Assembly: GCA_020725925.1 (NCBI GenBank)
Contig: DYTN01000012.1
Span: 1-46,529, forward strand
DNA from: Methanobacteriota archaeon
GTDB taxonomy: Archaea; Thermoplasmatota; Thermoplasmata; UBA10834
DNA: 46,529 nucleotides
Direction: 5' to 3'
Part shown: piece after piece, positions 3,643-37,347 of the stretch
How positions within the stretch are numbered: the stretch's first letter is position 1
Layout: every line of letters starts with the position of its first letter
Made by a program: the position numbers and the translations under genes
The notes under the pieces: generated by a model
Told to the model about the DNA's origin: nothing
The model's database searches: none
What the model saw: only the letters and a program-made list of their open reading frames with translations

Positions 3643-4083
3643 CTATCTTGAAAGTCCCCTGGCCCAGTTTGCTGCGCGCTCGAGCTCTCCTTCTTTGAGC
3701 GGGCCTTTCTTGCCTTTGACGTAGAACGGCTCGGGAGGCGAGCTCTGGACGCCGCCCTTTGACACCAGATTCTCCCCGATCTTCTCCGCGGCGAAGCCGA
3801 AGACCCTGACGAACTTGCCCGAGTATCTGGTATCGAACGTGGCGAACTTGAGGCCCTTCACGGCAGTGCCTGGAATCCTGACAAGGAAGTCCTGCATCGG
3901 CTCTGATGGCCTTCCGCCCAGGGTCGGGGAGCCGACGATCAACAAATCGATCTGGCCCAATCTGGCTGGGTCCACCTCGTTCACCCGAACTACCTTTGTT
4001 TCACCAGCCAACGCACCGCCGACGGCTTCAGCGATCTTCTGTGTGTTTCCGTAGACGGAATCGTAGACCACCAGTACTCTCGT
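3643..4083 (-). CDS. flavodoxin-family protein, probable ACG start
   Basis: Small FMN-binding electron carrier of about 146 residues. The phosphate-binding loop VYDSVYGNTQKIAEAV lies at the extreme N-terminus, followed by GSPTLGGRPSE (the second FMN loop) and FDTRYSG. With a conventional start the protein would begin at GTG 4071, cutting the first beta strand. Upstream, GGAGGG is followed by five bases and then ACG at 4081-4083, giving the textbook flavodoxin start (M)RVLVVYDSVYGNT. I therefore place the start at ACG 4083; the frame upstream contains no ATG, GTG or TTG at a useful distance. It could be a rare start codon, a mutated ATG, or a base error. Monocistronic, ending 139 bases from the D-aminoacylase start. 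Confidence 0.8.
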   Translation of the reverse strand, partial: TRVLVVYDSVYGNTQKIAEAVGGALAGETKVVRVNEVDPARLGQIDLLIVGSPTLGGRPSEPMQDFLVRIPGTAVKGLKFATFDTRYSGKFVRVFGFAAEKIGENLVSKGGVQSSPPEPFYVKGKKGPLKEGELERAANWARGLSR

Positions 4084-4183: not shown

Positions 4184-4196
4184 TGCCAGGTGAAGG
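4184..4196. repeat. partial copy of the rnpB 3'-end sequence (13 bp)
   Basis: TGCCAGGTGAAGG matches bases 10164-10176, the terminal P1 strand of the RNase P RNA gene, exactly and in the same orientation. It sits in the gap between the flavodoxin gene and the first low-GC gene, so it may mark an outer, older edge of the island. Confidence 0.6.
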
Positions 4197-4236
4197 GCTT
4201 AGGCCGCTAGGATGTGTTTGCGTCTGGGCAGAAGGC

Positions 4237-4731
4237 TCAGCTCTCCCGGTATTTCAGCACGAATGTTAGAACCCTCGCAGGAGATTGCGCCATTTCATAC
4301 CTTCCTAAGCGTGGTCTCGCAAGCCAAATTGGCTTCCACAAGCTCATCAAGACAACAACCGTGGATATGCATCCAATCAGGAATCCCAGCCTCGGTTGAA
4401 TGACGGGTGAGATGCCATCGAGCACAGGGTCGTCAAACGAAGCAAGAATGGTCAGGACGAATGCGGATAATCCCGTCAGTTGCACTATGCCTGCCAGCGG
4501 CGAGATCAGAACCAAGGCGGTCCCAATTGCGAACAACAACGCCTGATAGAAGCATGGACCGCCGTCCAGCATGAACATCAGATCGGGGAACATCCAAGGG
4601 GTCCTTGGACTGGGCATGGACGGTGGGATGTATAGCCAGATTGCAGGGAATGAGACAAAACCAATGATTGCTCCCGCTAGTGTAAGAACGTTGACTCGGA
4701 GCTTCATTCGCTTGCGACTGAGTGTTGTCAC
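4237..4731 (-). CDS. uncharacterised membrane protein
   Basis: Predicted protein of 164 residues, no family recognised. Hydrophobic stretches at about 13-33, 60-82, 85-100 and 112-132 suggest four transmembrane helices with a basic C-terminal tail (ARPRLGRYEM...). Codon use is A/T-richer than in the flanking chromosome. ATG 4731 is used; a second in-frame ATG (residue 9, before KLRVN) is possible. It lies alone between two partial or full copies of the rnpB 3' end (4184 and 4854), so it may be the cargo of a small cassette. No function can be assigned. Confidence 0.6.
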   Translation of the reverse strand: MTTLSRKRMKLRVNVLTLAGAIIGFVSFPAIWLYIPPSMPSPRTPWMFPDLMFMLDGGPCFYQALLFAIGTALVLISPLAGIVQLTGLSAFVLTILASFDDPVLDGISPVIQPRLGFLIGCISTVVVLMSLWKPIWLARPRLGRYEMAQSPARVLTFVLKYRES

Positions 4732-4853
4732 TGATTTGGATTAGGCCGGGGCATTCATAGTGTTTTCGCTGCCGTTGACTTTGCAGGCAATCCGAAAGGA
4801 AGCATTCAGAGGAGAGCACAGACTTGGACCTTGACTGGAAGGAAAACAATGAA

Positions 4854-4875
4854 GTGCCAGGTGAAGGACATAAGC
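4854..4875. repeat. direct repeat of the rnpB 3' end (candidate attR)
   Basis: Twenty-two bases here, containing CCAGGTGAAGGACATAAG, are identical to 10163-10184, which is the 3' terminus of the RNase P RNA gene on the minus strand. Orientation is the same, so the 5.3 kb between them is bounded by direct repeats. This is the pattern left when an element integrates at the 3' end of an RNA gene and regenerates the gene end. Similarity continues weakly for another 15 bases. Confidence 0.8.
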
Positions 4876-4967
4876 TCCTCTATGTCCCCTACCTCCCAAT
4901 TTATGTCCCTCACCTGAGTCCGTCCAGCAACTTTTCTTTGGTGGGGGACATAAACCCGCTTATGTTC
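4858..4967. repeat. inverted-repeat cluster built from rnpB 3'-end motifs
   Basis: CAGGTGAAGGACATAA (4858-4873) is followed by its near-perfect reverse complement TTATGTCCCTCACCTG (4901-4916, 15 of 16), and then a second pair GGACATAA (4946-4953) and TTATGTTC (4960-4967). A shorter dyad GGACATA/TATGTCC also lies at 4867-4887. The cluster occupies most of the noncoding stretch 4732-5243. It could be stacked att remnants, a recombinase-binding region, or a hairpin in an RNA; no gene is visible in this stretch. Confidence 0.65.
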
Positions 4968-5043
4968 TCTAGATTTGGTGGAGTCGCTTTTCCTTTCCTA
5001 TGGTTTTTTCCGAGAAGAGGCTCAAACGCCCAGCCATGACAAA

Positions 5044-5060
5044 GGTGACATATAGAGGGA
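5044..5060 (+). promoter_or_regulatory. possible TATA region for the HAF-repeat protein
   Basis: The sequence GGTGACATATAGAGGG contains a TATA-like CATATAG preceded by purines. It is about 190 bases upstream of the translation start, implying a long leader if used. Weak evidence. Confidence 0.3.
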
Positions 5061-5243
5061 TTACGATTGCCATTTGGCCAAGTCATTACTTGGGTGCGTT
5101 CGACGGGGGAACAGTGTAGCAGGGTACAGTATAGGGATTTCAGTCCTCTCATTTGCTATGCGGACAATCCTTTCTCCTCCAATCTTGCGATCCACACAGG
5201 GCGGATTCTTGGATTTCACGGCCAAGAACTGGAGGAAATTGGG

Positions 5244-7850
5244 ATGAACAGAGGCAGAATTGGGGGCATGAGAAAGGTAGGTTGTGTGATTCTTTGCATT
5301 GTGATGTGTTGCACAGCAGTTGCTGTGCTCGGTGGGCGGAGTTCCGCCCAAGGGGTACTCGTAGACCTGGGCACACTCGGTGGAACAACCAGCTGGGCAT
5401 ATGACATAAACGGTTTGGGACAGATTGTAGGGCAAAGTGGTTATGCGACTGCTTCGGCGACTTCTTCCTTGTGGACTCCTCCCGGGTTCGTGATTGACCC
5501 AAAGGATACCAACAGTGACGGAGTGCCGGATCTCTGGAATGAGGATGTTAGTCCCGCGGATGGCGCGAATGACTTGATGCACCCCATTGGGGACCTTGGC
5601 GGGAATGGGGCTCAGCCTTGGGCCATCAACAGCATGGAGTCGGAAGTGACTGGCTTCTCGCTTACGCCAACCGAGGAGCGTAGAGCATACTTGCTCACGC
5701 CTGAGGATTCTAACTGGGACGGAGTTCCAGATACTTGGAACAAGGATGCAAACGGGGATGGCGTCAACGACCTAATGCAGGACCTTGGGACTCTCGGAGG
5801 AGCAAACAGCTGGGGGCTGGACATCAACAATCTGGGAATGGTGGTTGGAGCCAGCGAAATCGCACCCGAATCCTCAGAACCTCATGGCTTCTGCAGTCTA
5901 GAAACGACACTTCAGGTCAAACACATTCTCCCACCAAACGGTGGCAATCCTGGCCTGTGGGATATCTCTCCCGTATTGGGGTATAGTGAATCATGGGACG
6001 GGTACGTCGTCTTCTATGAGATGGAGACACCATATCAATACGATCAGGACTTTCTTGCCATTACCGAATTTGATGAGAGCGGTCTTGTCGATACGTTAAT
6101 CTTCCATGGTCCTCCTGGAGGCGATTTGCAGGTTGGTGATGTCGCTGGTGACGTCGTCGTGTGGAATCAGACTATCTATAGCGGTGAACAGTCGATCAAC
6201 TGGGTGACCATTGGCGGACCCCAGGGAATCATACCGGGAGGGCAGGGGTCAGTTCGCATGTGTGGCGACACCCTCGTCTGGTGCACTGAAGTTGAATCGC
6301 AATCGCTGGTCTGGATTTACGATATCGGCTTTGCTGCGACATACCCTGGCGTATATATGCCCGAATGCATCTCTGAGATCGAGAACGGAGTCTATTGGCC
6401 TTCGGGCTATTCTGTGGACATTGGGGACCAGTATGTTGTGTGGAAACAGTACGATGAAGGCCAATATGACATATACGCATTCGACTTGAGAAGTTATGTT
6501 GAGCCTTGGTGGGGCAGGCCCCATGATATCATTCAGGTCACTTCTACGCCCGGGACCGACGAGGATGAACCGGCGACAGAAGGGCCGCGGATCGTGTGGC
6601 AAGCCCAAGACATAGGAGCCGCGAGCACGCGTATTGAAGCATGCAACATGGACACTGGCAAGTTCTTCACCGTCGTCGACAACGGCGCTGGCAATTACAG
6701 ACCCAGCATTTCTGGCGATTTGATAGCATACGATTCGACATTCACAGGCAACCCACTCACAGACAACCTTGATGTATGGGTATTCAGAATTTCCGACCGC
6801 TGTCACTATCAGGTTACTACTGATTGGTTTGACCAGTACTCAAACGACATATTCGGCAACTTCATTGCATATGTCGACGCATACGACACGTATTCTATAC
6901 CCACATATCCGTTCTTTGCCTGGTATACGACTATCCGAGTTGACTCGCTCACGTTTGTGAATCCGATGATGGACCTTGGTACCCTCGGAGGTGCCGAGAG
7001 CATTGCGTTGAGCATAAATGATCTGGGGGATGTCGTTGGGTGGTCTAGCACAAAGGAAAATGCCATCCACGCATTCTTGATCCAACCGCGTGACCTGGAC
7101 AGCGATGGCACCCCCGAAACGTGGAACCGAGACCTCAACCGTGATGGAGTCAATGATTTCATGCAGGATTTGACCCCTCTTGGTCCTCATAGCAGCGCGC
7201 AAAGCATAAACAACGCGAGGCAGATTGTTGGGTCGATGTACTATTTGCCCAACACTCATGCATTCAAGTGGGATGGCGGCTCAATGATGGATCTTGGCAC
7301 ACTGGGAGGGGACTACAGCGAGGCAATCAAGAACAATGACATGTGTAAGGTTGTAGGGGTCAGCAAGACGTCCACGGGCGCGATTCACCCATTCTTGTTC
7401 GATGGTAACACAATGAACGATTTGGGGTTCTCCGGTTATGCTAGGGGCATGAATGACCTGGATCAAGTCGTCGGATTCTCTTTTACAGCAGGAGCGGTCC
7501 GAGCCTGGTTATGGTTGTCGAAAGAGACTCCTCTGCCCCCGAGCGACTTGATTGATGACCTTAGGGATGACATCGATGACCTCGCTCCCCCTGGTCCAGG
7601 CCAATCGCCCGAACCGGGCGAGCCACCACCGGTCCTGACCTGGGGACAGGCGAACAGCCTGAACCATAAGTTGGATGCCGCCCTGTATCAGTGGCTAGTG
7701 AGGGAGAACGTGAAGGCTGCGACAAACATCCTAGGCGCCTTCGTCAACGAGGTCGAGTCCCTGGTGAGTGAGGGCGTGCTGACGGAATATCTGGGGAGCC
7801 TGCTGATCGGCAAAGCCAACGCGATCGCAGCGGCGATACAACCTTCTTGA
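5244..7850 (+). CDS. secreted HAF-repeat / beta-propeller / FIMAH-domain protein
   Basis: Large exported protein of about 868 residues. Start ATG 5244 follows GGAGG (5231-5235) with an 8-base gap; an in-frame opening further upstream lacks this signal. Residues 1-36 form a signal peptide (basic start, hydrophobic core, ending SSAQG). HAF repeats of the form DLGTLGG...INxLGxVVG occur before and after a central region, about seven in all. Central residues (about 235-585) have repeated WIYDIG/YAFDLRS/VWVFRIS blades resembling TolB-like propellers. Three Asp-rich loops (for example SNWDGVPDTWNKDANGDGVND) look like calcium-binding dockerin/thrombospondin-3 elements. The last 100 residues, after a Pro-rich linker, match the FIMAH module (KLDAAL...AATNILGAFVNEVESL...LIGKANAIAAAI). 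No membrane anchor is seen, so it is probably secreted or cell-wall bound. A/T-rich codon use and the att-like repeats indicate acquired DNA. Confidence 0.85.
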   Translation: MNRGRIGGMRKVGCVILCIVMCCTAVAVLGGRSSAQGVLVDLGTLGGTTSWAYDINGLGQIVGQSGYATASATSSLWTPPGFVIDPKDTNSDGVPDLWNEDVSPADGANDLMHPIGDLGGNGAQPWAINSMESEVTGFSLTPTEERRAYLLTPEDSNWDGVPDTWNKDANGDGVNDLMQDLGTLGGANSWGLDINNLGMVVGASEIAPESSEPHGFCSLETTLQVKHILPPNGGNPGLWDISPVLGYSESWDGYVVFYEMETPYQYDQDFLAITEFDESGLVDTLIFHGPPGGDLQVGDVAGDVVVWNQTIYSGEQSINWVTIGGPQGIIPGGQGSVRMCGDTLVWCTEVESQSLVWIYDIGFAATYPGVYMPECISEIENGVYWPSGYSVDIGDQYVVWKQYDEGQYDIYAFDLRSYVEPWWGRPHDIIQVTSTPGTDEDEPATEGPRIVWQAQDIGAASTRIEACNMDTGKFFTVVDNGAGNYRPSISGDLIAYDSTFTGNPLTDNLDVWVFRISDRCHYQVTTDWFDQYSNDIFGNFIAYVDAYDTYSIPTYPFFAWYTTIRVDSLTFVNPMMDLGTLGGAESIALSINDLGDVVGWSSTKENAIHAFLIQPRDLDSDGTPETWNRDLNRDGVNDFMQDLTPLGPHSSAQSINNARQIVGSMYYLPNTHAFKWDGGSMMDLGTLGGDYSEAIKNNDMCKVVGVSKTSTGAIHPFLFDGNTMNDLGFSGYARGMNDLDQVVGFSFTAGAVRAWLWLSKETPLPPSDLIDDLRDDIDDLAPPGPGQSPEPGEPPPVLTWGQANSLNHKLDAALYQWLVRENVKAATNILGAFVNEVESLVSEGVLTEYLGSLLIGKANAIAAAIQPS

Positions 7851-7963
7851 CTGAAAGTGTACCTGTTCTGAATCCGGGAACGGGCCGAAACCTCCTTCTT
7901 ATTGCTTTTCTCGCCTTTCCATCCCTATTGTCTTTCCTCGGCGGTCTTCCCTAGGAAACCATT

Positions 7964-8242
7964 ATGGGACAAAACAAACGTAGCCAATTCGGTGGTGGTT
8001 TGAGGAAAGGAGCTGGAGCAATCGCAATTGGAGTCGCGGTATGGATTGGAGGAATCATCTTCTCCGTAGCAGTGACAGCTACGGTTGAAGGGATGAACCC
8101 AGACTGGGAGACGCAAACAACCCCGTCAAACTACATAGGCGCGCAGGTGACTATACTAACAATGTTCCTGTCTTACATTCCTTTCGCAATAGTTGGCTCT
8201 TGCTTCGTCCTACCCGGTATGACAGCCCGATTGAGAAGCTGA
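7964..8242 (+). CDS. small membrane protein, unknown
   Basis: Predicted protein of 92 residues beginning ATG 7964, not recognised. A glycine-rich basic N-terminus is followed by two hydrophobic segments (about 17-40 and 60-84), suggesting two transmembrane helices. No Shine-Dalgarno is evident. It lies 113 bases after the HAF-repeat gene on the same strand, inside the candidate island. Being short and unsupported by a family, it may not be expressed. Confidence 0.45.
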   Translation: MGQNKRSQFGGGLRKGAGAIAIGVAVWIGGIIFSVAVTATVEGMNPDWETQTTPSNYIGAQVTILTMFLSYIPFAIVGSCFVLPGMTARLRS

Positions 8243-8439
8243 CCTGAGACTCATACCCCTTCCAGATTCCCAATTGAGCCAGTATCTCAGCTCTTGTGGA
8301 TGCCTCTGGCTACCTCGTTTTGCCCATTGCTGAGTGAATCTGTTCAGCTCAACACAAGTCTTCTTCCGCTTCATTTCTAGCAAAGAGACTAAGGATAGGA
8401 ATGTGATTCCTGGATAGTCTTCGGTTGGAAGGTCAATCG

Positions 8440-9303
8440 ATGTGGTTCAAGAAGCTCTGGCTCAGCGAGGAACTCAAATCGAGGATGAGCTCAGACTTCT
8501 TGAGAATTGCCTCAATTGCATGCCTGGTTGAGCTTGCAATTCTGATTCTATGGTATTTTGCCGAGTACAAGCTGCAAATCGCTCCAAATACTCAGCGATA
8601 CCTGTATTCATCGCTGGTTCAGGCGTTTGCAGCCCTTGGAGGCCTTCTGCTCACCATCTTGGTTTTCATGTATCAGCGGGTCAAAGATGTACAGACGACA
8701 TACATTGAGGATGCCCATAAGGATGCTATCTCATTGAACATCGTCTTGCCAGTGGATTATGATCTTGCCAGAGAGGCCCTTCTAGATTGGTTCAACGGTT
8801 CGTTCAAGCAGCGTTGGGAGTCGGTAGAGGCATGTGCTGCAGCTGTGAAGAAGAGATACGAACACCCCTCCGAGGCAGACAGGGGGGACGCTGATGTGTC
8901 GAAGATGACCGAGGACTACGCCTACCTTCGAACGCAAGTGATTCAATATCGTCAAGTTGTGAGTCATTTGGGGCGTTTCATGGATGTTGGAGCCTTTTTC
9001 GAAAACAAGATGTCGGTATTGGCGATACTTGCGGTAGGGTCCTCGCTCACAATGATTATTCTCAGCACAGTGCTGTTGGCGATTGTCGACCAGTTAGGCA
9101 CTCTGCATGCCTCCCTGACCGTGCTCATTGTGCTGGCTTCTGGAGTATGCGTTCTATATGCGATTTCGTTCTTCAGAGGAATGCTGCATCTGTTTTTCGG
9201 TCTGAGCAAGATACCGGGTTTTGTTCAGACGAATCTTCCTGAGCCAACGGGGGCGGAAGAGATTCTCAATCAGGTTCGGCTGATGATGAATTGGCAGCAC
9301 TAG
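8440..9303 (+). CDS. uncharacterised four-helix membrane protein
   Basis: About 287 residues from ATG 8440, preceded by GGAAGG; an in-frame TTG at 8425 would add five residues. Hydrophobic segments at about 22-44, 58-80, 185-210 and 216-242 flank a cytoplasmic-looking, charged helical region (about 82-180) with many Glu, Lys and Arg. This resembles no family I can name with confidence. It lies in the A/T-rich island, 136 bases upstream of the HEPN-like gene on the same strand. The architecture (two helices, soluble helical domain, two helices) recalls membrane effectors found near defence genes, but that is speculation. Confidence 0.6.
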   Translation: MWFKKLWLSEELKSRMSSDFLRIASIACLVELAILILWYFAEYKLQIAPNTQRYLYSSLVQAFAALGGLLLTILVFMYQRVKDVQTTYIEDAHKDAISLNIVLPVDYDLAREALLDWFNGSFKQRWESVEACAAAVKKRYEHPSEADRGDADVSKMTEDYAYLRTQVIQYRQVVSHLGRFMDVGAFFENKMSVLAILAVGSSLTMIILSTVLLAIVDQLGTLHASLTVLIVLASGVCVLYAISFFRGMLHLFFGLSKIPGFVQTNLPEPTGAEEILNQVRLMMNWQH

Positions 9304-9352
9304 TCAAGTTGACTGAACAAGAACGATTGTATGTGGTGATCTGTTCTGGCGA

Positions 9353-9367
9353 GGTGGAGGGCATAAG
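9353..9367. repeat. degenerate copy of the rnpB 3'-end repeat
   Basis: AGGTGGAGGGCATAAG matches AGGTGAAGGACATAAG of the rnpB terminus at 14 of 16 bases, same orientation. It separates the four-helix membrane protein gene from the HEPN-like gene, as if each lay in its own insertion unit. Confidence 0.45.
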
Positions 9368-9439
9368 TCTTGTCGTGTTGTCGGCCAGACCCCAATTTCC
9401 ATCTGCCCGAGCGCAGATACCCAGTCAGGGTGATGACAA

Positions 9440-10090
9440 GTGGACGTGAGATACAGAATCGAGGATGGCCCGAAGAGCTATGTGCCGGGCTATGGTCAGA
9501 GCTACCCAGCTATGGTTAAGGTCGACCCGACACTGATATCAAGAGTCTGGGACAAGCGAAACCGGCTTGGAGCCAGAATCTCGGACAAGATCGTCGATTC
9601 CGTTGAGAAGTATGCGATGGCCAATCTTGACAAGGCATTTATGGAGCAAGATTCTGGAACTGAGTCGCTCAACCAGGAGCTAGTCAAGTTTCACCTCTAT
9701 CATTGGCTCTATGATTGCGTTGCCACGCTCGATGCAATCGCATGCCTCTTCAACATGAGATTCGGAGTCCTGCAGAATTCAAGATCCGTGTCCATGAACG
9801 ATAAGTTCATCCGCAACCTAGAGGAGAGGAGCCAAGAGACAGGCGCTTTCTTGCGTGGGGAGTTCGGTTGGATGAAGGAACTCAAGGACATGCGGGATTG
9901 CATCATTCATCGTGAAGGGCGATTGGTTGTCGGCGGCGGATTGGAGCCGCTAGTGGTCATTGATTTCAGCAGAGCTCTCGTAAGAGGCCTACCTTTGCAT
10001 CGCCAACGGATATCCGAGACAACGAACCGCTACTCGATGAAGCTAGCCGAGTTCGTTCAAGAAATTCTTCGGAAGGTTGACAAGTGGTGA
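9440..10090 (+). CDS. HEPN-like protein (putative)
   Basis: Protein of 216 residues, mainly helical and soluble; start GTG 9440. Near residue 150 it has MRDCIIHREG, fitting the R-x4-6-H signature of HEPN domains, preceded by long helices (FHLYHWLYDCVATLDAIACLF) typical of that fold. HEPN proteins are often RNases in toxin-antitoxin, CRISPR and abortive-infection systems (established knowledge), but here the match is one motif plus helical content, so function is inferred only. It ends 73 bases from the rnpB 3' end, the place where an integrase would normally be expected; I see no Arg-His-x-x-Arg-Tyr recombinase pattern in it. Codon use is A/T-rich like the rest of the island. Confidence 0.55.
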   Translation: MDVRYRIEDGPKSYVPGYGQSYPAMVKVDPTLISRVWDKRNRLGARISDKIVDSVEKYAMANLDKAFMEQDSGTESLNQELVKFHLYHWLYDCVATLDAIACLFNMRFGVLQNSRSVSMNDKFIRNLEERSQETGAFLRGEFGWMKELKDMRDCIIHREGRLVVGGGLEPLVVIDFSRALVRGLPLHRQRISETTNRYSMKLAEFVQEILRKVDKW

Positions 10091-10162
10091 CCTTGTCAAG
10101 AACGGAATATCGAGGGTGGCAACAAGAGTGATTCTTGTGTATGTCTTCTCTCGCAAATCATG

Positions 10163-10184
10163 GTGCCAGGTGAAGGACATAAGC
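10163..10184. repeat. att-like core at the 3' end of rnpB (candidate attL)
   Basis: These 22 bases form the 3' strand of P1 and the conserved GCTTATG end of RNase P RNA, and are repeated exactly at 4854-4875. See the rnpB entry and the island finding. Confidence 0.8.
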
Positions 10185-10489
10185 CCCTTTCTGTTCCCGC
10201 ATTTCTGCGGTGATGGCATTCGACTATTGCACTCTACCCGCCGACGATGAGAGATCGATTCGGCCGTTTGAGCTTGCTCCAGTGGGGAGTCGCCGTTTCA
10301 CCATATCTCCGGGAGACTTCATCCCCGAGGGAATCATCACGTTATCCCGGAGCTGTGTCGTTTCTGCGCCCTTGCCAGGACTCTCGCCCTGCTGCTCTGG
10401 CAGCCCACTTTCTCGCGGAGAGGGGACTTTCCTCAGCCGGCGCGCACGAACGCGCACCTACCGTCAGCCATCCGCCTTCTCCTGGCGGA
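10163..10489 (-). ncRNA. rnpB: RNase P RNA (catalytic RNA of tRNA 5' processing)
   Basis: Read on the minus strand, conserved blocks appear in the right order: GAGGAAAGTCCCC (10434-10422), GCAGAAACGACACAG (10367-10353), GGTGAAACGGCGA (10302-10290), AGAGTGCAATAGTCG (10235-10221) and ACAGAAAGGGGCTTATGTCC (10194-10175). The ends pair as helix P1: CCAGGAGAAGG (10485-10475) with CCTTCACCTGG (10176-10166), ten of eleven pairs with one A-A mismatch. Length about 325 nucleotides fits archaeal RNase P RNA. The gene follows cheD on the same strand with its own promoter-like sequence. Exact ends are uncertain by a few bases. Its last 22 bases are duplicated at 4854-4875. Confidence 0.92.
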
Positions 10490-26639: not shown

Positions 26640-26724
26640 GCGGGGGTAGCCAAGCTCGGTCAACGGCGCCAGATTGAGGGTCTGGTCCCGCAGGGGTCCC
26701 TGAGTTCAAATCTCAGCCCCCGCA
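26640..26724 (+). tRNA. tRNA-Leu (anticodon GAG)
   Basis: Eighty-five bases fold as a class II tRNA: acceptor GCGGGGG/CCCCCGC with discriminator A, anticodon stem CCAGA/TCTGG around loop TTGAGGG (anticodon GAG, reading CUC/CUU), a long variable arm TCCCGCAGGGGTCC, and T arm CTGAG-TTCAAAT-CTCAG. CCA is not encoded. No intron. Confidence 0.95.
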
Positions 26725-26849
26725 CCTTCCTGTCCTCATCTGACGAACGTTGTGCTTTTCCGTCCTGCATCTGTTCGGCGTTCCCACGCAAACGGCATAT
26801 ATCCATGCCGCGAATCCCGGCTCAAGCGGATCCGAACTGTTGGTGCAAG

Positions 26850-27356
26850 ATGCTTGCAGTCACTCACCTGGTCGTCAGCCTGTTGCTGATTCAGCTCCTG
26901 ACCCTCGACAGGAACGACGCCTTCGTCGCCCTCCTTTTCGGCGTGTTCGTCGACTTTGACCACTTCCTGGGGCTGCACAGCCACGCCAAGACGAACGGCC
27001 TCAGCGCCGTGCTCGATATCGATTCCCTCATGGATCCCGGCGGCCAGTGGAAGTCGATGTTCCACAACCCGGTTGCGATTGCCGTCGTCGGGCCGCTGTC
27101 TGTGGCTTCCAGGCTGGCCATCCCGTTGCTCTTCTGGGGCGCGCACATATCCATGGACTACCTCGAGGATAACTTCCTCGGCCTGTTCTCAGCTTCGGAG
27201 GCGGTCCTCCTGTTTGTCACGACCCTCGGCTTCCTGTCGGTCAGGTACGCCAAGTACATAGAGAGCTACTCGTTGGCGACGCTCGGGGAGTACCTCAGGT
27301 TCGAATGGTCTGGTCTGGCCCGCCTGTTCAGGTCCTCTGCCTCGGCATCCCTCTAG
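26850..27356 (+). CDS. membrane protein with His/Asp motifs, possible membrane-bound metal-dependent hydrolase
   Basis: About 168 residues from ATG 26850 (MLAVTHLVVS). Hydrophobic segments at about 5-20, 27-42, 75-100 and 110-130 suggest three or four membrane helices. THLVVS near the start, DFDHFLGLH, and HISMDYLEDN later resemble the His/Asp pattern of YdjM/DUF457 inner-membrane hydrolases, but conservation is partial. The frame extends upstream to 26805, but those residues lack hydrophobic character. It lies between tRNA-Leu and the convergent dehydrogenase gene, without a clear operon partner. Confidence 0.6.
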   Translation: MLAVTHLVVSLLLIQLLTLDRNDAFVALLFGVFVDFDHFLGLHSHAKTNGLSAVLDIDSLMDPGGQWKSMFHNPVAIAVVGPLSVASRLAIPLLFWGAHISMDYLEDNFLGLFSASEAVLLFVTTLGFLSVRYAKYIESYSLATLGEYLRFEWSGLARLFRSSASASL

Positions 27357-27366
27357 TGGGCTGGAC

Positions 27367-28356
27367 TCACAGGTGCCTCAACACGTGGTCCGTGAACGAC
27401 TGTGACCCGTGCCTTCCGCCAATGTCCACCGTGAGATGTCCCGAGGCGTAGGTGGCGGCGACTGCCTGGTCGATCCTTGACGCCGGTCCGGGGAGCCCGA
27501 TGTGCCGAAGCATCATCGCTCCGGCGAGTATTGCCGCCGTTGGGTTGGCGACTCCTTTGCCCGCGATGTCAGGCGCCGATCCGTGTGCGGGCTCGAAGAC
27601 CGAGTGCTTCGGTCCTATGTTCCCCGATGGTGCGAACCCGAGGCCCCCTGCCACGCCTGCCGCGACATCGGAGAGGATGTCGCCATACAGGTTCAACGTC
27701 ACGATCACATCGAAGGTCGCTGGGTCGGTCACGAGCTTCAAGGCTGCGGAGTCCACGAGCTGATCGCTCGACTCGAGGCCCTTTCCGAGCATCCCGACCC
27801 TTTCCCTGAAGACGGACAGGAAGAGCCCATCGGAACCCCTGAGGACGTTGGCCTTGTGCACGCATGTGATCCTGCGCCTCCCCGAGGACCGCGTGAGGTC
27901 TATGGCGAAGTCCACGATCCTCTCGCACGCCCTTCTCGTAACCTTCCTCATCGTCGTCACGCCGAGGTCGTCGAACACCTCGTTCTGTGTGTACATCCCC
28001 TCCGTGTTCTCCCTGACTATGACGACATCGATCGGCGGCCTGTTCGGCCTCTCGACAAGGCTCCTCACAGGCCTCACATTGGCGTAGAGGTCCAGCCCCT
28101 TCCTGAACCTGAGCACCGGCGAGACATAGTCCAGCCGGTCGGGGCTCGTGACCGCGCCGAAGAGCGACGAGTCGCACGACCTCATCAGAGCGAACGTCTC
28201 CTCGGGGAGTGCGTCGCCCTTGGCGCTCAGCGCTCCCTGCCCTATCTCCGCGCGGACGAACTCCACCTGGTCAGTGGCCTCGCCTACCACCCTGACCGCG
28301 CACTCGGTCACCTCGGGGCCGATGCCGTCCCCTGCCAGAACACAAATGCGTTTCAT
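27367..28356 (-). CDS. isopropylmalate/isocitrate/homoisocitrate dehydrogenase-family protein
   Basis: NAD(P)-dependent beta-decarboxylating dehydrogenase of 329 residues. Visible: GDGIGPEV at the N-terminus, RENTEGMY (substrate region), VHKANVLRGSDGLF (catalytic Lys), NLYGDILSDVAAGVAGGLG (metal Asp) and FEPAHGSAPDIAGKGVANP (cofactor loop). The short length matches archaeal 3-isopropylmalate and homoisocitrate dehydrogenases. The ilv operon nearby makes isopropylmalate dehydrogenase (leucine) plausible, but no leuA/C/D is present, so substrate is open. It starts five bases after the coiled-coil gene and is probably its operon partner. Confidence 0.88.
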   Translation of the reverse strand: MKRICVLAGDGIGPEVTECAVRVVGEATDQVEFVRAEIGQGALSAKGDALPEETFALMRSCDSSLFGAVTSPDRLDYVSPVLRFRKGLDLYANVRPVRSLVERPNRPPIDVVIVRENTEGMYTQNEVFDDLGVTTMRKVTRRACERIVDFAIDLTRSSGRRRITCVHKANVLRGSDGLFLSVFRERVGMLGKGLESSDQLVDSAALKLVTDPATFDVIVTLNLYGDILSDVAAGVAGGLGFAPSGNIGPKHSVFEPAHGSAPDIAGKGVANPTAAILAGAMMLRHIGLPGPASRIDQAVAATYASGHLTVDIGGRHGSQSFTDHVLRHL

Positions 28357-33671: not shown

Positions 33672-34238
33672 CCTCTCCCTGAGAACGCGCTCGACCTCTT
33701 GGAACGGTCTCTCCCCGTCCTCGCTGTTGTCGATGGTCACCCATTCGTGAGACACCAGCTTCTTGGCGATTCTCCTCACCGACTCAAGCCTCTCCTGTGT
33801 CTCGAACATCTCCGGCATGTGGCCGCGATCTGCGATCCTGCGGGCCGCGACCTCAGGCTCGATGTCTATGAAGAGGGCGAGGTGGGGGAACGGCAGCAGG
33901 TTCCTGAAGAGCCTGTATCCGATCGGGGCCAGACTCTCGGGCAGGTATGCCGTGCCGAGGAGGTACCGGACGAAGATCGTTGTCCCCGAACCGCGGGACG
34001 CGTACCTCCTGACGGACATCAGCACATCGGCAGCAAAGAACAGGGTCGCGAACAGCCTCGCCGCGCCACCGGACCTCTCGAGTGAGCGCTTGGACATCCT
34101 GCCGAAGGTCCCGCGGGAGGGATGGGAGACGAGCATGACCCTCTCCCCCGACTGCTCGAGAAGTCCACGGATCCTTTGCGCGTGCGTGTCCTTGCCGCAT
34201 CCGTCCAGGCCGTCGACGACGATCAGCCTCAGCCTCAT
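33660..34238 (-). CDS. tmk: thymidylate kinase (dTMP kinase)-like
   Basis: P-loop kinase of 192 residues. The Walker A segment is DGLDGCGKDTHAQ near residue 9, with Asp in place of the usual Ser/Thr after GK, as in some archaeal and eukaryotic relatives. The arginine-bearing FVRYLLGTAYLP and the LFIDIEPEVAARRIADRG lid/base region fit the family. Start ATG 34238 overlaps the stop of the upstream membrane gene (ATGA), so the two are translationally coupled. The frame continues upstream to 34775, but that part overlaps the other gene and lacks homology. Confidence 0.8.
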   Translation of the reverse strand: MRLRLIVVDGLDGCGKDTHAQRIRGLLEQSGERVMLVSHPSRGTFGRMSKRSLERSGGAARLFATLFFAADVLMSVRRYASRGSGTTIFVRYLLGTAYLPESLAPIGYRLFRNLLPFPHLALFIDIEPEVAARRIADRGHMPEMFETQERLESVRRIAKKLVSHEWVTIDNSEDGERPFQEVERVLRERSIL

Positions 34239-36414: not shown

Positions 36415-37347
36415 ATGACCAGATGCTCATCCCCTGGTAAGATGATACTCTTCGGCGAGCACGCCGTGGTCTTCGGCAAGCCCGCGCTCGCCCTCGCCAT
36501 CGACCTGCGCATCTCGTCGGCGGTCACTCCTTCCAGCCAGTACTCCGTCAACGGCCATCCGATGAGGAAGCAACATCATGCCTACATCTCCGCGTCCCTC
36601 GACGAGGCATGGGGGGGCCCACCGATCAACATAGACACAAGCTCAGACATACCGTCAGGGTCGGGGCTCGGCTCCTCCGCAGCTGTCACCGTCTCATGCG
36701 TGGCTGCGATGCTGGCGGCCAAGGGGAGGAGTCTCGACCCTGAGGCGGTTGCCATGCGCTCTTTCGCCGTCGAGCACAAGGTGCAGGGGAGGGCGAGCCC
36801 GACGGACACATCGACCTCCACGCACGGGTACGGGGTCCTCGTCTCCCCTGAGAGGAGGGAGAACTTCCTGTGGCGGATCGAGCTGGGTGAGAGAGCGTGG
36901 AACATGCATCACTGTGATGTGCCGCCGCTGCAGTTCGTCGTCGGGTACACAGGCATCCACGCGACGACCGGCCCATTGGTCACCAAGGTGAAGAAGCTCG
37001 CGGACACGAGGGAGGACGCAAGAAAGGCCATCGACAGGATAGGGGAGATAGTCCTCGAGGGTGTCGGGGCGACGAAGGCCAGGGACAAGAGGAGGCTCGG
37101 GGCCCTCATGACCGAGAACCACGGGCTGCTGAACTCCCTGGGTGTAGGGCATCCGGCGCTCGATGCCCTCGTCGCGGCGTGCAAGGAGAGCTCGTACGGC
37201 GCGAAGCTCACGGGCGCGGGCGGGGGAGGCAGCATGATCGCCCTGACGGACGACGTCGAGGCGACCACGAAGGCGATCAGGGAGGCTGGTGGCGAGCCCA
37301 TCGTGGTCAGGGTCGGGTGTGAAGGTGTCAGGATCGAATCGAGATGA
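36415..37347 (+). CDS. mvk: mevalonate kinase
   Basis: GHMP-family kinase (about 310 residues) phosphorylating mevalonate. Motifs: SPGKMILFGEHAVVFGKPALA at the N-terminus, the ATP loop SDIPSGSGLGSSAAVTVS, and GAKLTGAGGGGSMIAL near the C-terminus. The start ATG 36415 (MTRCSSPGKM) is chosen because GGAGG is six bases upstream; an upstream in-frame GTG at 36391 overlaps the TATA box. Divergent from HMG-CoA reductase, so the two mevalonate steps share an intergenic promoter region. Followed by the DUF2116-like gene. Confidence 0.95.
   Translation: MTRCSSPGKMILFGEHAVVFGKPALALAIDLRISSAVTPSSQYSVNGHPMRKQHHAYISASLDEAWGGPPINIDTSSDIPSGSGLGSSAAVTVSCVAAMLAAKGRSLDPEAVAMRSFAVEHKVQGRASPTDTSTSTHGYGVLVSPERRENFLWRIELGERAWNMHHCDVPPLQFVVGYTGIHATTGPLVTKVKKLADTREDARKAIDRIGEIVLEGVGATKARDKRRLGALMTENHGLLNSLGVGHPALDALVAACKESSYGAKLTGAGGGGSMIALTDDVEATTKAIREAGGEPIVVRVGCEGVRIESR

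Follow-up and report, generated by a model that had tools for sequence, protein, structure and literature searches.

The 3′ end of the RNase P RNA gene as a probable integration site for mobile elements in a Thermoplasmata family

Does the 3′ end of the RNase P RNA gene (rnpB) serve as an integration site for mobile elements in an archaeon? Integration at the 3′ ends of RNA genes is classic for tRNA and tmRNA genes, and an earlier note had read a short repeat near rnpB in the window (the whole 46,529-nt stretch of DNA analyzed here) as the attL/attR pair of a low-GC island. The window comes from a Thermoplasmata-type archaeal MAG, whose genome (G000) spans 2.04 Mb in 73 contigs, the window being contig C56. 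We compared it with a family set of 19 genomes and a wider class set of 300 genomes; all genomes compared are MAGs, and occupied sites and sites in other states were compared between species and genera. G007 is a congener of the window genome, G044 belongs to another family, and the records of relatives with the same rnpB end name them as Thermoplasmata, Candidatus Thermoplasmatota or Euryarchaeota MAGs.

Copies of the rnpB 3′ end and the DNA between them

The 22-nt sequence GTGCCAGGTGAAGGACATAAGC is identical, and in the same orientation, at 4854–4875 and 10163–10184, as had been noted, and 100 dinucleotide shuffles yielded no match to it even when up to three mismatches were allowed. The Rfam model RF00373 matches the minus strand from 10483 to 10168 (199.4 bits, E 5e-58), and P1 pairing of gccAGGAGAAGG with CCTTCACCTggc, a pairing that is conserved in the 13 genomes compared, indicates that the RNA ends near 10165. 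The repeat therefore consists of the final ~20 nt of the gene and 2 further nt, a small adjustment to the earlier description of it as the last 22 bases of the gene. The rnpB 3′ end is thus duplicated at the far border, and the target gene itself is intact: RF00373 matches it in full, and its P1 strands are those standard for the family. Elsewhere in the window, at 26640–26726 on the plus strand, ARAGORN calls a tRNA-Leu(gag) that is absent from the Rfam listing at the gathering threshold. The features of the locus, named according to the att reading argued for below, are as follows.

10165–10486, minus strand: rnpB, archaeal RNase P RNA gene (RF00373 match 10168–10483 plus the P1 helix, 3 nt more at each end)
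10163–10184, minus strand: proximal att copy, the functional rnpB 3′ end and CTTATGTCCTTCACCTGGC strand of P1 (exact 22-nt repeat; equals the family rnpB end)
4876–10162, no strand: younger A/T-rich insert, 5.29 kb, four ORFs, 51% GC, without integrase (from GC, ORFs, no PF00589 match on the contig, and no genes downstream of rnpB common to relatives)
9440–10090, plus strand: HEPN-like protein, 216 aa (PF18730, E 3.7e-4, below cut-off; RxxxxH motif, RDCIIH, at residue 152)
8425–9303, plus strand: 292-aa predicted membrane protein (ORF; no Pfam match)
7964–8242, plus strand: 92-aa predicted membrane protein (ORF; no family match)
5067–7850, plus strand: secreted-looking HAF-repeat protein, 927-aa ORF (TIGR02913 HAF_rpt, 1.1e-36)
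4876–4970, no strand: inverted-repeat motifs in the insert, right next to the far att copy (TTTATGTCCCTCACC at 4900–4914, GGTGGGGGACATAAA at 4940–4954, and partial copies)
4854–4875, minus strand: distal att copy of the younger insert (exact repeat of 10163–10184)
4205–4853, no strand: older, smaller insert, 0.65 kb, 52% GC (exact att copy on one side, degenerate copy on the other)
4237–4731, minus strand: membrane-protein ORF of the older insert (ORF list)
4184–4204, minus strand: degenerate third att copy, the outermost boundary (3 mismatches; ~100 nt before flavodoxin, like the G007:C12 att copy)
3643–4083, minus strand: flavodoxin, chromosomal right flank common to G007 and G003 (PF00258; orthologues in G007:C12 and G003)

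The bracketed DNA is A/T-richer than its surroundings, as the earlier note had claimed: GC is 62% upstream of rnpB and 59% beyond the inserts, compared with 51% in 4876–10162 and 52% in 4205–4853. That note had described a single 5.3-kb island. An insert of 5.29 kb is present, but the third att copy at 4184–4204, next to flavodoxin, points to two stacked inserts (5.29 kb and 0.65 kb) rather than one. A profile search for Phage_integrase (PF00589) found no match anywhere on the window contig, so the remark that no integrase is visible is right for the window. In both inserts att sites flank cargo and the recombination module is absent; because neither encodes a recombinase, they are CIME-like, and the stacked, integrase-less layout fits this class best. 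They may, as the earlier note had proposed, be satellite, decayed or trans-mobilised elements.

Among the cargo genes, the HAF repeats of a protein previously described as HAF/FIMAH were recovered, and the FIMAH domain was not recovered by Pfam or NCBIfam; this protein is likelier to start at 5244 or 5268, which would give it a signal-peptide-like N-terminus. The HEPN-like assignment proved weak by profile match, although the RxxxxH motif is kept; this protein has no relatives in the viral collection. The 292-aa protein has one homologue (32%) in the 300 class genomes, in G008:C8 and away from rnpB. PADLOC found no match to defence families in the window cargo. Inverted TTATGTCC motifs cluster at 4876–4970, where the DNA fold has a z score of −3.8 (4850–4972), and similar motifs adjoin rnpB ends in G017, G003, G010, and G011; those in the window are possibly arm sites for a recombinase.

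The rnpB site in related genomes

Chemotaxis (che) genes lie upstream of rnpB in an order that is syntenic across the genus and beyond. Downstream of rnpB, every relative read carries different genes, the sole in-place exception being flavodoxin, which lies beyond the inserts in three species: in the window it comes after the degenerate copy at 4184, in G007:C12 an exact att copy immediately precedes it, and in G003 it is found 3.8 kb past rnpB. This shared position makes flavodoxin the likely old right neighbor and 4184–4204 the oldest border. When rnpB loci were compared in this way, as the earlier note had advised, different cargo was found inserted at the same point, and no relative had the same genes in the same order at this locus.

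Extra copies of the rnpB 3′ end, with up to three mismatches, occur in 9 of the 19 family genomes. The rnpB 5′ end, used as a control, is single-copy in 14 of 15 genomes, the exception being G007, where another copy lies on a fragment contig. That second partial rnpB (5′ part), at the contig edge at G007:C64:13–176, could stem from a mixture of strains, from contamination, or from a genuine second gene copy. In the wider set the 3′-end sequence is present in 16 of 300 class genomes, all of which have that rnpB end where it is readable, and the reversed 3′-end control sequence had zero matches in the same 300 genomes. Because the repeat is found only where rnpB has this end (where readable), it is not a dispersed element unrelated to the gene, a possibility that the earlier note had named as one that would refute its reading.

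Linked far copies were found downstream of rnpB in G008 (+3700, 3.7 kb), in G003 (about +864), and in G044 (+4790). The G008 far copy leads into GGCACTTAAACCTATT, a flank that adjoins rnpB directly in G013 and G015, which belong to other genera; judged from these sequences, G008 has an occupied site and G013 and G015 have differently occupied or empty ones. Distant class genomes mostly have no rnpB-end repeat within ~20 kb, which suggests that the hotspot is lineage-limited. The contigs of G001, G002, and G004 end at or within the 3′ part of rnpB, a pattern that repeats or mixed populations would produce. Two single-scaffold MAGs, G009 and G034, have an rnpB that meets an N gap before its 3′ end, with the end copy located 36 kb away on the same strand in G009 (C1:225536 and 189270) and 346 kb away in G034 (C1:1389498 and 1043483); these arrangements are possibly large islands or scaffolding errors.

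A candidate recombinase, conserved right ends, and ectopic copies

In G007, a 415-aa tyrosine recombinase begins 72 nt past rnpB (PF00589, 8.6e-13). It is weakly like XerA and keeps all catalytic residues in R, HxxR, and HxxxxxxxxxxY motifs (RVG, HALRR, and GHHDLTVLQERY, respectively). G007 is the only family genome with a recombinase next to rnpB, and no recognizable homologue of this protein was found in the other 18; similarity to a G011 recombinase is weak (22%), and the viral collection contains neither relatives of the protein nor an exact core.

The right ends of the integrase-less inserts of G003 and G008 align with the end that precedes the G007:C12 copy over ~100 bp outside the core (z 9–18 versus shuffles), as expected if one recombination system served all three. 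These right ends share a AGGGGAGGAAAGGC-like motif ~110–130 nt before the core, and a AGGGGAGGAAAGGC-like motif also occurs 80–85 nt after rnpB in G003 and G010. The window insert's own right end has short-motif likeness only to those of G003, G008, and G007. In G007, rnpB and the flavodoxin-side att copy sit on separate contigs, and we infer that the G007:C12 copy belongs to the same element as the G007 integrase.

The full core occurs three times in the 2 Mb of the window genome. A 28-nt exact copy of the rnpB end, which the earlier note had missed, lies at 33922 on contig C18 (site listed as 33922–33943), far from rnpB. GC is 47–52% from ~23.0 to 33.9 kb, an A/T-rich island of ~11 kb with the copy at its right border, and 54–59% past the copy. 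Genes on the A/T-rich side include one for a fused DNA methyltransferase-endonuclease and others that are restriction-modification-like; on the other side the copy is joined directly to the promoter region of the heme operon, and the heme operons of G003 and G007 have no such site. The C18 core is accompanied by 37 nt of the spacer found between rnpB and the integrase in G007 (65 nt at 98%), and its cargo-core-arm order is the one expected at a circle junction. No left-hand rnpB-end copy was found for this island.

Copies outside rnpB loci also occur in G011 and G015. The ectopic copy at G011:C1:1172109 has flank, and a 467-aa tyrosine recombinase, a serine resolvase, and a clostripain-family protein are encoded 4–6 kb before it.

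The PF00589 matches in the window genome are at C52, at C18:49682, and twice on C28; the ~20 kb read around them held no rnpB-type site, the best candidate having 8 mismatches. The recombinase gene at C18 ~49.3–50.3 kb (match C18:49682) overlaps or adjoins tRNA-Pro(cgg), and the pair is probably an ordinary tRNA-targeting element. The two C28 genes (26875–27408 and 36599–37132) encode closely similar tyrosine recombinases ~10 kb apart.

Interpretation, alternatives, and known systems

We consider it very probable that, in this Thermoplasmata family, a family of tyrosine-recombinase elements has the rnpB 3′ end as its attB and that the two inserts in the window are stacked, CIME-like elements that encode no integrase. 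The attL/attR reading of the earlier note gains support from the variability of the site, the same end around other cargo in G008, G003, and G044, the ancestral flank past the far copy in G008, and the G007 recombinase; the lack of a recombinase in the window inserts and of any family protein resembling the G007 one, the split of the G007 locus over two contigs, the comparison of MAGs alone with no empty site from the same species, and the presence of the core away from rnpB (C18, G011, G015) count against it. In the mechanism we propose, the element would carry a copy of the last ~25–28 nt of rnpB as its attP, and a tyrosine recombinase of the G007 type would recombine this attP with the rnpB 3′ end, with the G007 integrase presumably cutting rnpB. 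The incoming end would complete P1 of the RNase P RNA, and the displaced end would mark the far border. At least two insertions would have occurred in the window, an old one, now decayed (4205–4853), and then the younger one of 5.3 kb (4876–10162). The inserts may still be mobile, in which case they would be movable only with a recombinase supplied from elsewhere, or they may be fixed.

A repeat of this kind could also arise by segmental duplication, or by homologous or illegitimate recombination around rnpB, in the absence of any site-specific recombinase. Such an origin would suit a window without an integrase, and it would suit repeats that exceed a minimal core, as in G044, where the repeat runs ~100 nt beyond the core, and at C18 with its G007-type flank. 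We nevertheless regard it as improbable, as the repeat invariably stops at the 3′ end of rnpB across many species that carry unrelated cargo, the 5′ end of the gene is not duplicated, and a tyrosine recombinase is present at the site in G007. Even less credit is due to the idea that rnpB shares by chance a dispersed palindrome of a regulatory or terminator-like kind: inverted TTATGTCC motifs do cluster by some copies and ectopic copies do exist, but the full core is rare and is confined, where readable, to genomes with that rnpB end. The fixed insertion point beside the end of an essential gene could call to mind a Tn7/CAST-type transposon or a group II intron-like element using the rnpB end as a landing mark, but we found no transposase, TniQ, or reverse transcriptase among the inserts searched, and to our knowledge neither type of element duplicates a gene 3′ end at its far border; of the explanations weighed here we give this one almost no weight.

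Within the preferred reading of rnpB as the attB of a tyrosine-recombinase family, a broader version is conceivable but rather doubtful. Here rnpB would be a general integration hotspot of these archaea, the recombinase site would be the P1 strand itself, and the recombinase would move integrase-less cassettes that have only the rnpB end (a core with short arms) in common with it. These cassettes would bring along restriction-modification-like and other accessory genes, and would reach loci other than rnpB as well, among them the heme operon of the window genome.

The best analogue is provided by the ssrA (tmRNA) islands of Dehalococcoides, which are low-GC, arranged in tandem downstream of an essential RNA gene, with ~20-bp repeats of that gene's 3′ end at their borders; 15 of these islands have no integration module and were suggested to be cis-mobilizable elements (PMC3146451). 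The window inserts are likewise low-GC, tandem, bordered by such repeats and devoid of an integration module; they differ in their target (rnpB, not ssrA) and in their archaeal host, and the recombinase seen in G007 is of the tyrosine type, whereas the DsiB of Dehalococcoides is CcrB-like. CcrB-like recombinases are generally classed as serine recombinases. IGEs of Haloferax gibbonsii are integrated at tRNA genes, with terminal direct repeats of the 3′ part of the RNA gene and a XerC/D-type integrase by the complete RNA gene (PMC7921747). Repeats of an RNA gene 3′ part are likewise present here, and the G007 integrase likewise adjoins the complete RNA gene; unlike those IGEs, however, the elements at rnpB have a different target and mostly have no integrase. 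CIMEs of the streptococcal ICE/IME families are decayed, devoid of recombination genes, and often in tandem (PMC7563491). On sequence alone, the window inserts resemble these CIMEs in being tandem and without recombination genes, whereas no conjugation or relaxase genes of the kind that mark the ICE/IME families were seen beside them. Searches of the open-access literature yielded no account of integration at rnpB, and the rnpB or RNase P papers found there mention the gene for other reasons; on our reading the inserts belong to a familiar class of element, at a target not described in the papers found.

With a natural set of rnpB-specific recombination sites, islands in tandem, and a single candidate recombinase at hand, the chemistry of the site is directly testable, and a practical rule for Thermoplasmata genomes is to look downstream of rnpB for accessory and possible defence genes. 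A further question posed by the locus is how an essential RNA can tolerate repeated swapping of the 3′ strand of its P1 helix. G003 bears on this point: its own rnpB end has diverged (CTTACGAACCTTGACCT) and introduces one extra P1 mismatch, and the family-standard end is found at the far border instead.
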